Below are positions 15,693-19,957 of a DNA stretch of 42,690 bases, in pieces. The stretch's first letter is position 1, and each line of letters starts with the position of its first letter. Under the pieces are notes generated by a model. The model saw only the letters and a list, made by a program, of their open reading frames with translations, had not been told where the DNA came from and ran no database searches. This stretch comes from Halomonas sp. (lineage in GTDB: Bacteria; Pseudomonadota; Gammaproteobacteria; Pseudomonadales; Halomonadaceae): contig NZ_JAFWFN010000048.1 in assembly GCF_017515565.1 (NCBI RefSeq), positions 1-42,690 on the forward strand, written 5' to 3'. Both the position numbers and the translations under genes were made by a program.

Positions 15693-15769
15693 CGGGATGT
15701 AGCGCAGTCTGGTAGCGCGCCTGCTTTGGGAGCAGGATGTCGGGGGTTCGAATCCCTCCATCCCGACCA
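15693..15769 (+). tRNA. tRNA-Pro (anticodon TGG)
   Basis: The 77-base cloverleaf has acceptor arms CGGGATG and CATCCCG. The anticodon stem CCTGC/GCAGG encloses TTTGGGA, giving anticodon TGG at 15727-15729. The T arm holds GGTTCGAATCC, and CCA is encoded at the 3' end. Confidence 0.97.
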
Positions 15770-15861
15770 CATACCTAGTGCGGAAGATGGTAGCTTGCTT
15801 CTCCAGGCTTTGGTTGTGGTCAAGTGCTCATCAGTATTCAGCCAGACAGAATGCTTTATGT

Positions 15862-15938
15862 GCGCCCATAGCTCAACCGGATAGAGCAACGGCCTTCTAA
15901 GCCGTAGGTTGCGGGTTCAAGTCCTGCTGGGCGCGCCA
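15862..15938 (+). tRNA. tRNA-Arg (anticodon TCT)
   Basis: Acceptor arms GCGCCCA and TGGGCGC close a 77-base cloverleaf. Stem ACGGC/GCCGT with loop CTTCTAA gives anticodon TCT, reading AGA/AGG. The T loop GTTCAAGTC and an encoded CCA are present. It lies 92 bases after tRNA-Pro, with nothing recognisable between. Confidence 0.96.
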
Positions 15939-16041
15939 TTAATGATATAGATAATTACTTTTACTGAAGTGATTAAATCCAGATCAATAAATGGTGTTCT
16001 TGAGCAGTGACCTAAGGTTGTATTTAAAGTACTTCATCTAT

Positions 16042-16117
16042 GGTGGATGTAGCTCAGTGGTAGAGCCCCGGATTGTGACTCCGGTGGTCGTGGGTTCAAT
16101 CCCCATCATCCACCCCA
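16042..16117 (+). tRNA. tRNA-His (anticodon GTG)
   Basis: Acceptor arms GTGGATG and CATCCAC are extended by the extra G at position -1 (16042), characteristic of tRNA-His. Stem CCGGA/TCCGG with loop TTGTGAC gives anticodon GTG. CCA is encoded. It is the last tRNA of the cluster; 103 bases separate it from tRNA-Arg. Confidence 0.96.
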
Positions 16118-16248: not shown

Positions 16249-19200
16249 CTATCGTGGCATTACCCTGATCTTATTGTCAGCTGTTCCTGTAATAGCCTCT
16301 GGCCTACCCAACAGATAACCTTGTGCGTACTCAATTCCTAATGAATTCAGCGTATCCAGTGTGTCCTGAGTTTCAACATGCTCGGCAATGGTGTCTATTT
16401 CTAATGCTTTTCCTACCGCGTGAATCGCTTGTACCATAGCCTTGTCAATGGGGTCGTGGTGAATGTTGCGTATAAAGCTGCCATCAATTTTTATATAATT
16501 CACGGGTAGTTGCTTAAGATAACTAAACGAAGAAAGCCCTGTGCCAAAATCGTCCAATGCGAACTTGCAACCGAGCGCTTTTAGCGATTGGATTAATTCA
16601 CTGACTTTTGAAAGTTGCGCAATGGCGGTGCTCTCGGTAATTTCAAAGCATAAGCTTCCCGATGGTAGGCCCGCTTTACGTACTTGTTGAATCAATTCAT
16701 GGCAAAAAGCGCTATCTGAAAGTGATTCTCCGGACAGATTAATGCCCCAATAGCCGATTTCGTTATCAGTTGAGCTGCGGTGTCGATCCGTTAGCCAGGC
16801 AAGCGTATTGCGAATTACCCAGCGGTCAATCCGTGTCATAAAGTGGTAACGTTCGGCGGCAGGTAGAAAACTGCCGGGTGAAATAAGTATGCCGTTTTCC
16901 TCGAGACGTAACAGTATTTCTCGGTAGCCAGGTTTTTCCCCACAAACGGCGCTTACTGGCTGAGCAAAAAGTCGGAAGGTGTCATTATCAAGAGCGTTTT
17001 GTAACCGTTGAACCCATTGCAGTTCGCTGTGGCGCTCTAATAAATGACGGTCACTGGGTTGATGGCTATGAATGCGATTTCTTCCGGCTTCTTTGGCGAT
17101 GTAGCAGGCTGCATCAGCGGTATGAAGGGCGTCTGATAAGTGCATAGGGTGTGCAGGTGTGATCGGCACTAGGCCAATACTAACGCCAATGCCAAACGTG
17201 TGGTTTTGCCAAACAAACCTATAGCATTCGATGTCGCTACGCACTGCTTCGCAAATATGTGCGGCCTTGTCTAATGGGCAGTCTGGAAGAATAAGTGCAA
17301 ACTCATCACCGCCAAGGCGAGCAACGGTGTCACTGTTGCGGACGTGGGTTTTTAGTTTTACCGCCACCTGTCTTAAAAGTTCGTCGCCCGCTAAGTGGCC
17401 GCAGGTGTCATTAACAATCTTGAACTGGTCTAGATCTAAGTAGCAGAGCACATGCGAGTGCTCTGGGTGTTCGAGCAGTTTGGTTAACACGATTTCAAAT
17501 GCACGGCGGTTGATTAATCCGGTTAGATTATCGTGAGTTGCTTGGTAGTTAAGCTGTTCAGAGAGTTTTTGTGTCAGGCTTACGTCTTGGAAAACAACCA
17601 CGGCGCCCAATGTGATGCCCCGCCGAGAGCGAATGGGGGCTGCACTGTGTTGGATTGGGTGGCGCTTGTTGCATCGGTGTAACAACTGGCAGTGTTCGCT
17701 GTATTGAACGGCTTCGTGCTGGGTGAGTACCTGGCGGGCAGGGTTATTAATAAGCTGCTCGTTAATGTCATCATATAATTGATAAACAATCTGTATCGGC
17801 TGATTAATGGCATCTTCCAATGTCCAGCCGGTGAGTCGCTGTGCTTCTGTATTAATAAAGGTGATATTGCCGCTTACGTCACAGGTGATCACCCCGTCGC
17901 CGATGGATGCCAGTGTTATGCGAGCGAGATCCCTTTCTCGATTCAGTTGTTCCTGAAGCTGTTTGCGTTCGGTTATATCTCGCACCATGCCTGAACACTC
18001 CGAGGCAGAGCCAATGGCGCCTTCGCTTACCTGAATCTCTAAGTAGCGTACCTGCTGCTCTTTTGTGCGTAGTTTAACTTCATGACGTACGCCGGGGTGG
18101 AGGGTGTTATTGGGAAGTAGTTTGCTGACGGGTTGGCCAACTAGCTGGTGAGCGTTTACCCCAAATAAAGCTTCCGCACCGGGGTTTAGGCCGGTTAGAG
18201 TGCCGTCAGATTGCCATGTGATTACGCCATCGCGTAAGTTGCGAAGCATCACTTGCGTATGGCCTACGGCGCGCTCAAGGGCGGCGGAAACTCGGTTATA
18301 GCCAGCGGCAATCTCGCCTACCTCAGTAAACGGGTCGGCATCTATACGTTGGTGCATATCACCCTGCCGCTCGTGCTGTCGCATATGCTCAAGGAGCTGG
18401 TGAAGCTCATTTTTTGCGCCATGCTCTGCCAAGTTAAGGCCCATTTTCTCAGCTTCTTCAGAGACACGCAGTGGTAAAAAGCGCTGTGTTACGCTGAAGA
18501 GCAGCCAAGCGATGCCAAAGCTCCATGCACCACAAACCATCACGCCGATCAATTGGACACCAAATTGGTCTGTACGGCTTAAGGTGGTTCCTAAAGTACT
18601 CATATCGGCAAACCAGGGAAGTGCTAATGTTCCCCAAACGCCCGCTACTAGGTGGGCAGGTATTGCGCCCACAGCATCGTCAATGCGGCGCTTGAGCAGC
18701 CACTCGCTAGAAACAACCATAAGAACGCCGCTTACGCTGCCAAGTAAAAATGCGGCTGATAGCGAAAGGACGTTTGCCCCTGCAGTTACTGCCACTAGCC
18801 CTGCTATTGCGCCGTTAATCGCATACATCACATCGGCATAGCGTCGTATGCGCCAGCCCACTAGCATCGCTGATAAGATTCCGCCTACAGCACCCAGTAG
18901 GGTATTGGCGAGAATGCCGGGTACTGCACTGCTAAGCGTTAAAGTGCTTCCTCCATTAAAGCCAAACCAGCCTAAAATCATAAACAGGGCACCAAGCATC
19001 GCGAGCGGCAGATTTCCTGCAGGAAACGTGGAGGGCGGCTTATCAGGCTGGAAGCGCCCGCGTCTTGGGCCGATAACTAATACGGCGGCTAGCGCCACCC
19101 ACCCACCGACACTGTGCACTACTGTTGCGCCTGCGAAATCGACGAAGCCTAGTGCTGCTATCCATCCAAGTGGTCCGCCTAGCAGGCCGCCCCATGCCCA

Positions 19201-19623
19201 GTGGCCAAATATGGGATAGATGAGCAAAGCGATCCAGAAGGCCGTCCACAGGTAGCCGATAAATGTCATCCGCTCAGCTACTGCCCCAGCAACAATAGTC
19301 GCCGCCGTGGCACAAAACATGGCTTGAAAAATAAAGACCGTAATTAACCAGCTGTTTGCCGATTCAAGACCCCAGCCAAACAATGATGTGCCAATCCAGC
19401 CTGAGTGGGAGGTTCCAAACATCATCCCAAAACCAGCAAGCCAAAACACACTTACGGCGATGGCAAAGTCCGCTAGGTTTTTCATGGCGACGTTAATGGC
19501 ATTTTTAGTTCGTGTTGTGCCAGCTTCAAGGCACAAAAAACCCGCCTGCATAACGAAAACCAATGCGGCTGCCCACAATACCCAAAGCGTATCGATTAAC
19601 GTAGTGTCAAAACCGTAAGACAT
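16249..19623 (-). CDS. Ammonium channel (Amt) fused to PAS-PAS-GGDEF-EAL: ammonium-linked c-di-GMP protein
   Basis: This 1124-residue protein joins a complete Amt domain (about 1-385, eleven helices) to a cyclic-di-GMP output. Amt pore residues are kept: Asp in VDFAGATVVH (about 162) and the twin histidines about 170 (VVHSVGG) and 324 (IPAHLVAG). A HAMP-like linker (about 388-455) is followed by PAS domains at about 457-550 and 565-685. The diguanylate cyclase has intact GGDEF at about 771-775 and an RxxD inhibitory site (RNSD, about 762-765). The EAL domain reads EIL (about 902) and keeps NLSGE, FEITES, DDFGTG (about 1024), KIDGSF, AEHVET and a late Gln, so both halves look catalytic. The ATG at 19623 has AAGGG seven bases upstream. 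No glnK is adjacent. It probably senses or transports ammonium at the inner membrane and adjusts c-di-GMP. Confidence 0.92.
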   Translation of the reverse strand: MSYGFDTTLIDTLWVLWAAALVFVMQAGFLCLEAGTTRTKNAINVAMKNLADFAIAVSVFWLAGFGMMFGTSHSGWIGTSLFGWGLESANSWLITVFIFQAMFCATAATIVAGAVAERMTFIGYLWTAFWIALLIYPIFGHWAWGGLLGGPLGWIAALGFVDFAGATVVHSVGGWVALAAVLVIGPRRGRFQPDKPPSTFPAGNLPLAMLGALFMILGWFGFNGGSTLTLSSAVPGILANTLLGAVGGILSAMLVGWRIRRYADVMYAINGAIAGLVAVTAGANVLSLSAAFLLGSVSGVLMVVSSEWLLKRRIDDAVGAIPAHLVAGVWGTLALPWFADMSTLGTTLSRTDQFGVQLIGVMVCGAWSFGIAWLLFSVTQRFLPLRVSEEAEKMGLNLAEHGAKNELHQLLEHMRQHERQGDMHQRIDADPFTEVGEIAAGYNRVSAALERAVGHTQVMLRNLRDGVITWQSDGTLTGLNPGAEALFGVNAHQLVGQPVSKLLPNNTLHPGVRHEVKLRTKEQQVRYLEIQVSEGAIGSASECSGMVRDITERKQLQEQLNRERDLARITLASIGDGVITCDVSGNITFINTEAQRLTGWTLEDAINQPIQIVYQLYDDINEQLINNPARQVLTQHEAVQYSEHCQLLHRCNKRHPIQHSAAPIRSRRGITLGAVVVFQDVSLTQKLSEQLNYQATHDNLTGLINRRAFEIVLTKLLEHPEHSHVLCYLDLDQFKIVNDTCGHLAGDELLRQVAVKLKTHVRNSDTVARLGGDEFALILPDCPLDKAAHICEAVRSDIECYRFVWQNHTFGIGVSIGLVPITPAHPMHLSDALHTADAACYIAKEAGRNRIHSHQPSDRHLLERHSELQWVQRLQNALDNDTFRLFAQPVSAVCGEKPGYREILLRLEENGILISPGSFLPAAERYHFMTRIDRWVIRNTLAWLTDRHRSSTDNEIGYWGINLSGESLSDSAFCHELIQQVRKAGLPSGSLCFEITESTAIAQLSKVSELIQSLKALGCKFALDDFGTGLSSFSYLKQLPVNYIKIDGSFIRNIHHDPIDKAMVQAIHAVGKALEIDTIAEHVETQDTLDTLNSLGIEYAQGYLLGRPEAITGTADNKIRVMPR

Positions 19624-19957
19624 TGGCAAGCCCTTGTGCAGTATTGGTGCGTATTCAGCACTGCTGTGGTGCTGCTAGTTGGCAGGCCCATTTCATTAAG
19701 CCCTGGTAGGCCTTCTCATTTCGCACACGGGTAGATGCGTAACCGTGGTGCTGATAGATATCAAGCAATTGTTGTGCCGCGTTTAGTGAAGTCATCCGTA
19801 TTTATGTTTTTTGCGATATTAACGCCTGAAAATAAAACTAAAAACAGTGTTTATAACTGTGTTAAAGCTCATCAGATAGTGATATTTTTCAATAAGTTAC
19901 TTGCGCAGCTATCTTTGCTTATATGCGCAATCATTGTTAAGAAAGGAGTGCATCAAA
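19624..19957. other. Divergent intergenic region between the Amt fusion and the amino acid dehydrogenase
   Basis: A 334-base gap that must hold both divergent promoters. It includes a short inverted repeat cagcac/gtgctg (19656-19661 and 19669-19674) in the leader of the Amt-fusion gene. It becomes AT-rich from about 19795 to 19900, where acagt-N7-actgt forms another small inverted repeat. I found no convincing sigma-54 (GG-N10-GC) promoter, which might have been expected for nitrogen control. Confidence 0.5.

Follow-up and report, generated by a model that had tools for sequence, protein, structure and literature searches.

A candidate membrane ammonium receptor in Halomonas, formed by an Amt channel with a built-in cyclic di-GMP enzyme

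The window analysed here is a stretch of 42,690 nucleotides of Halomonas sp. (RefSeq assembly GCF_017515565.1, contig NZ_JAFWFN010000048.1, positions 1 to 42,690), which carries on its minus strand a gene joining an ammonium channel of the Amt family to domains for the synthesis and breakdown of cyclic di-GMP (c-di-GMP). The encoded fusion protein is best read as a membrane ammonium receptor, obtained by re-use of an Amt, with a c-di-GMP enzyme built in, a reading to which a probability of about 0.7 is assigned. As far as sequence can tell, the receptor reading is well supported, because most of the NH4+ site of the sensor protein Ks-Amt5 is retained, the vicinity has no PII gene, the same genome has a separate glnK-amtB-glnK locus, and the nearest solved relatives bear titles naming a receptor or sensor. 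The receptor part of the original prediction, which had proposed that the channel may act as an ammonium receptor, stands on these same four grounds. From these and the features described below we infer NH4+ binding, its coupling to the output and sigma-54 control.

The coding strand is the minus strand, the plus-strand translation being full of stops. The open frame spans 16249-19629 and 1126 aa counted from a TTG; translation more likely begins at an ATG at 19623, which has AAGGG before it and gives an 1124-aa protein. Residue numbers follow the 1126-aa frame (P0001), in which the likely start methionine is residue 3. The gene and its parts are:

16249..19623, minus strand: Amt-(HAMP-like)-PAS-PAS-GGDEF-EAL coding sequence, 1124 aa from ATG 19623, stop codon at 16249-16251
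18412..19590, minus strand: Amt domain (residues 14-406), pore residues kept (Pfam PF00909, AlphaFold2 model, aligned sites)
19297..19548, minus strand: stretch with Q28, E35, N51, D54 and T111, counterparts of Ks-Amt5 Q24, E31, N47, D50 and T109 (alignment to 6EU6, conservation)
18241..18411, minus strand: HAMP-like linker (residues 407-463) with the motif DPFTEVGEIAxxYNRV (hhalign, predicted helices)
17977..18228, minus strand: PAS domain 1 (residues 468-551; second PF00989 stretch, model strands)
17578..17913, minus strand: PAS domain 2 (residues 573-684; Pfam)
17074..17541, minus strand: GGDEF domain (residues 697-852), GGDEF motif and RxxD inhibitory site (I-site) intact (Pfam, motif inspection)
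16300..17010, minus strand: EAL domain (residues 874-1110), catalytic residues intact (Pfam, motif inspection)

Pfam and an AlphaFold2 model both bear out the single frame originally described, with a complete Amt followed by a linker, here HAMP-like, two PAS domains, GGDEF and EAL. Pfam matches Amt at 16-406 (350 bits), GGDEF at 697-852 (142 bits) and EAL at 874-1110 (231 bits), and recognises PAS as two PF00989 stretches, the main one at 573-683. The AlphaFold2 monomer model (mean predicted local distance difference test, pLDDT, 84; predicted template modelling score, pTM, 0.47) has Amt helices at 11-384, strands compatible with the first PAS at 468-551, the second PAS at about 578-682, and GGDEF and EAL thereafter; its domain packing is unreliable and residues ~391-470 are poorly modelled. 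Across all domains the ratio of nonsynonymous to synonymous differences per site (pN/pS) lies between 0.03 and 0.25 in four comparisons, this ratio being reported because synonymous divergence (dS) was saturated in most of them.

One line of evidence for a receptor is the in-membrane site. Passages of PMC5764959 describe a high-affinity NH4+ site in Ks-Amt5 made up of Q24, E31, N47, D50, T51, T109 and T112, and report that this protein binds NH4+ without efficient transport, despite keeping the known pore motifs. Aligned to Ks-Amt5 (6EU6), the fusion protein has Q28, E35, N51, D54, F55, T111 and A114 at these positions, so that five of the seven residues (Q28, E35, N51, D54, T111), both acids among them, are kept. 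The resulting Q, E, N, D, T signature was followed in a plain PF00909 family search, blind to the signature, which gave 35 listed rows with frames above 700 codons; the fused set examined numbered 29 (28 fetched loci and the window), with six genus rows not included. All 28 fused proteins with an intact Amt carry the signature, 23 of them belonging to one genus and thus not being independent events; in the 29th locus, the broken L043, the Amt piece also retains all five residues. The signature is missing in 27 of 29 distinct stand-alone Amts, a set composed of 28 of the best-scoring loci and the genome's own AmtB rather than a random sample of the listed loci; in this AmtB the five positions read A, E, N, L, S. 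The two exceptions (L026, L028) belong to a separate clade of 16 signature-bearing stand-alone Amts. In a set of 76 distinct Amt+GGDEF+EAL proteins, to which Halomonadaceae contribute many members, Q28 is found in 75, E35 in 74, N51 in 74, D54 in 73 and T111 in 72.

The phylogeny of the Amt part was inferred from 152 sequences thinned to 93 rows at 78% identity, with the ten inspected site columns removed, using a quick search without bootstrap. Fifty-one rows (48 fused proteins, L133, L095 and the cut L105) cluster apart from both AmtB types, with a Shimodaira-Hasegawa-like approximate likelihood-ratio test (SH-aLRT) value of 96; L170 and L049 sit on long branches. The Amt part appears on this tree to share descent with the fused sensor Amts, separately from the assimilatory ones; its best PDB matches, Ks-Amt5 and Sd-Amt1, were not among the rows. 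Output class switches several times (four changes for GGDEF-EAL, seven for kinase), and outputs were therefore exchanged.

Linkage to PII genes was examined as well. In a phmmer search of the fetched stretches, no PII open reading frame (ORF) was found in the window, in agreement with the earlier remark that no glnK adjoins the gene, nor in the 28 other fused loci (0 of 29 in all). A PII ORF was present in one of 80 receptor-type loci, against 13 of 32 stand-alone loci. In the stand-alone list L002 and L061 coincide, L023 and L031 represent short parts of fused genes, and the majority of stretches measure only ~3-4 kb. The lone receptor-type locus with a PII ORF is L129, an Amt-kinase of Opitutales. 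The genome's other Amt sits in a glnK-amtB-glnK locus (L061, 5676-7853; annotated from sequence), where two PII genes flank a canonical amtB, so that uptake has its own locus. Five loci from the clade of stand-alone Amts with the receptor signature (L164-L168) gave no PII match. Downstream of three of these Amts (L165, L166, L167) lies an ORF of 222-254 codons without Pfam match; a divergent GGDEF-EAL ORF adjoins the Amt gene of L166, and a kinase-like ORF lies ~7 kb away from the Amt gene of L164. Neither a GGDEF-EAL nor a kinase-like ORF was found in the loci L165, L167 and L168.

The linker that follows the Amt is taken as a diverged HAMP-like relay. Its motif, DPFTEVGEIAxxYNRV, is partly common to Sd-Amt1 and to Amt-kinase proteins, and the AlphaFold2 model gives it helices at 407-422 and 436-463 with low pLDDT. 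In hhalign, a profile made from 81 linkers, 51 of which remained after filtering, matched a profile of 20 HAMP domains from the same genome with a probability of 94.8 and a score of 38.8 over 44 columns, compared with 14.4 for the best of 50 column shuffles and 13.1 for the reversed control; the HAMP profile was built after dropping row L154, a stretch cut at the wrong place, and did not include the sub-cut-off own-genome match L163. Pfam HAMP aligned in register with the linkers of some family members, below its cut-off of 25 (16-22 bits; best relative 22.5, L170), and gave no match to others, three of seven linkers being matched in one comparison. In each of the four comparisons the linker had the lowest pN/pS of all protein parts (0.03-0.14).

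At the output end, the catalytic motifs and RxxD site named in the original prediction are all in place. The RxxD is formed by R764 and D767 and the GGDEF motif by residues 773-777; the EAL domain has E904, N964, E996, D1026, D1027, K1047, E1083 and Q1103, which, like the GGDEF residues, we take to be the catalytic ones. Of these and neighbouring positions, D732, N740, D749, G774, D775, E776, K846 and E904 are kept in 76/76 Amt+GGDEF+EAL proteins, and N964, E996, E999, D1026 and K1047 in 75/76 plus one gap, the protein without D1026 being truncated; D1027 and E1083 are each found in 73/76, Q1103 in 74/76, and the I-site residues R764 and D767 in 71/76 and 75/76, respectively. Both active sites are intact, and their motifs allow both activities without settling the net direction. 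The genome contains 54 GGDEF matches, fragments included, and the fusion protein is therefore one input among many.

A sub-case of the receptor reading would make the protein in effect a phosphodiesterase only: its GGDEF would bind GTP and regulate EAL allosterically, as has been argued for RbdA, and ammonium would control breakdown alone. It draws on RbdA, the closest solved output homologue: according to passages of PMC7825114, its GGDEF-EAL part is a phosphodiesterase without diguanylate cyclase activity, and a longer construct has both cyclase and GTP-enhanced phosphodiesterase activity, a GTP stimulation that was not seen in another study (passages of PMC10294637). The retention of the GGDEF motif, D732, N740, D749 and K846 in 75 or 76 of the 76 proteins, together with that of the I-site, and the fact that GGDEF is the sole recognised output of Sd-Amt1, both speak against this sub-case, which is regarded as a tentative possibility on the lower side of even odds.

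The fusion is neither isolated nor an artefact. In the genus, profile A1 (Amt plus linker region; E≤1e-110) matches 37 of 82 genomes, 31 of them with an apparently full frame; the remainder comprise a copy with a stop inside the Amt (G001), shortened frames of 889, 936 and 741 codons (G415, G003 and G020, respectively) and copies without the start of the Amt (G032, G046). A sequencing-caused fusion of two genes, the flaw that the original prediction had named, is ruled out by this presence in 37/82 genus genomes and by recurrence at the same place in 26/27 near loci from separate assemblies, a few copies being broken or shortened. Fusions of Amt to signalling outputs, initially thought to be rare, are more widespread than that: at least 14 of 299 evenly drawn Pseudomonadota genomes, that of the window included, encode a receptor-type Amt in a frame above 700 codons, and of 369 Gammaproteobacteria genomes 30 hold a match at E≤1e-108, the frame exceeding 600 codons in 15 of the 30.

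A public scan, from which the best 80 of 551 relatives were kept, used search patterns containing Q28 and E35 and is hence no fair test for these two residues. These 80 come from Gamma-, Beta- and Alphaproteobacteria, Cyanobacteria, Planctomycetota, Verrucomicrobiota and Chloroflexota. The domain search proposed at the outset yields 58 proteins among them with Amt, GGDEF and EAL in one frame (L117 being cut by a contig end), next to 12 Amt-kinase fusions, five broken or shortened copies (L079, L085, L086, L088, L101; the broken L043 of G001 is a further case) and five others, namely an Amt-PAS protein (L095), one cut by a contig end (L105) and three stand-alone Amts (L133, L136, L140). The last three, of Roseobacter type, have a separate kinase ORF downstream of the receptor-type Amt gene, and the Amt-PAS protein, from Opitutales, is overlapped by a kinase ORF; these four are possible split versions of the fused sensor. 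Among distant relatives, the receptor-type Amt is joined to other outputs as well: GGDEF only in a 672-aa, Sd-Amt1-like protein (L205), kinase and receiver domains in L202, L212, L130 and L129, and, in four genomes, a methyl-accepting chemotaxis protein (MCP) domain (L171:4190-6431, minus strand; L204:464-2635, L206:342-2564 and L207:427-2601, plus strand). In the Amt-MCP proteins an ammonium channel has apparently been made into an ammonium chemoreceptor. An open-access literature search returned no Amt-GGDEF/EAL or Amt-MCP study, nor anything fitting Amt-MCP chemoreceptors, absence there not meaning unpublished.

Nitrogen control is suggested by the leader, in which two elements were located:

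19764..19780, minus strand: sigma-54-like -24/-12 element GCGGCACAACAATTGCT, 11/14 specified consensus positions
19658..19672, minus strand: weak NtrC-like palindrome GCAC-N7-GTGC, between the promoter element and the start

Scores of the sigma-54-like element refer to what we take to be the sigma-54 consensus. With 11/17 columns at ≥93% in 27 Vreelandella rows (L087 left out), it is more conserved than any other 17-bp segment of the leader, and a GG-N10-GC element stands at a similar distance in all 27 Vreelandella-type loci and the window. Within 300 bp upstream, 25/27 Vreelandella-type leaders score ≥10, seven of 13 other Halomonadaceae leaders score ≥12, and of the remaining 40 loci eight reach ≥11 and three ≥12. 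Among 4000 random 300-mers, scores of 10, 11 and 12 were reached by 654, 163 and 20, and the leaders of neighbour genes reached 10 in 12/99 and 11 in 0/99. The genome has one match each to Sigma54_DBD (rpoN) and ntrC above the curated cut-off, and a similar element (11/14) precedes the first glnK of the glnK-amtB locus. Little weight is placed on the palindrome, as its right half has decayed in many relatives. Neither sigma-70 promoter-like sites (4, against a shuffle mean of 6.0) nor terminator-like sites (6, against 5.3 in shuffles) showed a clear excess. At 19780-19900 the leader has further stretches conserved in the genus, among them AAAAATATCAC and a repeat, ACAGT..ACTGT; they could be part of the divergent gene.

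Several observations weigh against the receptor reading or its parts. Two of the seven Ks-Amt5 site residues are changed (T51 to F55, T112 to A114), positions at which Sd-Amt1 likewise departs (F and S), as are two of the three Ks-Amt5 pore-blocking residues (Y30 to L34, F34 to T38), and because of these differences transport loss is not implied for the fusion protein. A Ks-Amt5-like pore blocking is itself unsupported: of F27, Y30 and F34 only the first is matched, by F31, which is also present in the genome's own AmtB. Among the 93 tree rows, Q28 and D54 are kept in 17 of 43 stand-alone Amts, many of which were found by the receptor-profile search; the signature is thus no proof of fusion and appears to mark a branch of Amts rather than fusion as such. 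The linker scores 16.3 bits against the Pfam HAMP (PF00672) cut-off of 25 and is modelled with low confidence. HAMP and GGDEF domains function as pairs and Amt is a trimer, which leaves a symmetry mismatch with the pairing PAS, GGDEF and EAL modules, as there is between Ks-Amt5 and its kinase. The sigma-54 score of 11/14 is reached by 163/4000 random 300-mers and by only 10/27 Vreelandella-type leaders; the promoter argument is carried by the conserved position of the element. Finally, 45/82 genus genomes have no match and 6/37 matches are broken or incomplete; the gene is therefore dispensable.

The pore bears on a second alternative, in which the Amt remains a working transporter and the c-di-GMP enzyme reads out flux instead of static binding, coupling uptake to signalling (a transceptor). 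As originally noted, the pore aspartate D164 and the twin histidines H172/H326 are kept; the Phe gate F105/F224 and the filter W146/S228 are present too, and all seven residues are conserved in 73 to 76 of the 76 Amt+GGDEF+EAL proteins (F105 in 74 and W146 in 75, the remainder being gaps). This conservation and the absence of two of three pore-blocking side chains fit a transceptor, whereas the same genome has its separate glnK-amtB-glnK, no PII gene stands beside the fused loci, and Ks-Amt5 itself shows, in the passages cited above, that intact pore motifs can go with inefficient transport, which together make a transceptor unlikely. That the Amt is a mere membrane anchor or scaffold, with redox, a gas or a small ligand sensed by the PAS domains and ammonium irrelevant, is very improbable: two PAS domains do lie between Amt and enzymes and their pN/pS exceeds that of the Amt in all four comparisons, yet the Amt-GGDEF (L205) and Amt-MCP (L204, L206, L207, L171) relatives have no PAS match, and few positions vary less than those of the NH4+ site.

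Under the receptor reading, external NH4+ would cross the Amt selectivity filter (W146/S228) and be held, as in Ks-Amt5, in the predicted in-membrane site of Q28, E35, N51, D54 and T111. Occupancy of the site would shift the C-terminal Amt helix, and the HAMP-like linker (407-463) and the two PAS domains would relay this signal to GGDEF and EAL, altering the balance of c-di-GMP synthesis and breakdown. The gene would probably be transcribed by sigma-54 RNA polymerase at nitrogen shortage, with glnK-amtB-glnK performing uptake. As to direction, analogy with the Sd-Amt1 ON state and with the ammonium-coupled Ks-Amt5 tips a guess slightly towards bound NH4+ favouring GGDEF, so that cells settle where ammonium is, and the unbound state favouring an RbdA-like EAL, so that they disperse and swim.

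More broadly, the Amt branch may be a plug-in ammonium receptor, in which one conserved NH4+ site and a HAMP-like relay are wired, in different bacteria, to c-di-GMP enzymes, histidine kinases and chemotaxis receptors, so that settling, gene expression and swimming would come under direct ammonium control. The c-di-GMP version would then be the Vreelandella protein, expressed through sigma-54 under nitrogen shortage. We lean modestly towards this picture. It touches the old question of how external ammonium is sensed directly by bacteria and whether signalling is a role of Amt proteins, and the signature helps to separate receptor-type from transport-type Amts. A transporter fold re-used as an exchangeable input module would be the most interesting outcome, and interest would be higher if direct control of c-di-GMP and chemotaxis by ammonium through this module were shown; Vreelandella/Halomonas are culturable hosts, with c-di-GMP and swimming as measurable outputs. 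New here are the signature conservation test, the PII/amtB context, the HAMP-like relay, the sigma-54-like element and the occurrence of the Amt module also on kinases and MCP.

The surroundings of the gene are conserved. Directly downstream, between the fusion gene and a folD-like gene, lies a cluster of tRNAs:

15693-16117, plus strand: tRNA-Pro, tRNA-Arg, tRNA-His cluster

Beyond it follow genes read as folD, mtnN and pyrC; upstream are a divergent FAD-dependent amino-acid dehydrogenase-like gene and then prfC (all names from inspection of translations). The closest gene on the same strand, folD-like, lies ~770 bases downstream past the tRNAs, and for this reason the fusion gene is probably the sole member of its transcription unit. 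The neighbourhood is kept in 26/27 Vreelandella/Halomonas-type loci (L062-L088), 24 with five marker genes and two with fewer (L087 having none), a sixth marker gene lying outside the fetched flanks. Vertical inheritance of the fusion gene fits this conservation. Going by the names of its nearest loci, the source organism falls within the Vreelandella/Halomonas group.

Among known systems, the best-scoring solved Amts are Sd-Amt1 of Shewanella denitrificans (8QJ3, 8QJ4, 8QPF; 46% identity) and Ks-Amt5 of Candidatus Kuenenia stuttgartiensis (6EU6; 43% identity), ahead of Af-Amt1 and AmtB. The ammonium-receptor idea is close to established knowledge and not a first, given that the PDB already contains the OFF and ON states of an Amt-GGDEF receptor (8QJ3/8QJ4, 'Receptor Sd-Amt1 OFF/ON-state', 2024); Sd-Amt1 thereby displaces Ks-Amt5, named in the original prediction, as the main precedent. 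Judged by PDB entry titles and sequence alignment, Sd-Amt1 agrees with the fusion protein at Q, E, N, D and T and along the linker as far as residue 447, after which its GGDEF output follows; its chains of 644-661 aa have GGDEF only, whereas the fusion protein adds two PAS domains and an intact EAL. Ks-Amt5 also joins an Amt with a high-affinity NH4+ site, sharing five of seven site residues, to an output, which in its case is a histidine kinase; its T51/T112 and pore-blocking Y30/F34 are absent from the fusion protein. AmtB, with its GlnK (here L061), shares the Amt fold and pore residues and differs in standing alone, with a PII gene adjoining and without counterparts of Q24 and D50. On the output side, RbdA of Pseudomonas aeruginosa (PA0861; 5XGB, 5XGD, 5XGE) is the nearest solved protein, with PAS-GGDEF-EAL and 43-44% identity over 556-557 columns; it has no Amt and a different, putatively periplasmic N-terminal sensor, according to passages of PMC10294637. 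No word starting with ammonium, ammonia, AmtB or nitrogen occurs in PMC8846402, which in 2022 reviewed the stimuli that act on c-di-GMP signalling, and another link between ammonium and c-di-GMP, in Azospirillum, runs via PII, as described in passages of PMC7646526. The fusion protein is a relative by descent of the sensor Amts Ks-Amt5 and Sd-Amt1 and would work as they do; its two PAS domains and intact EAL make it a variant of them.

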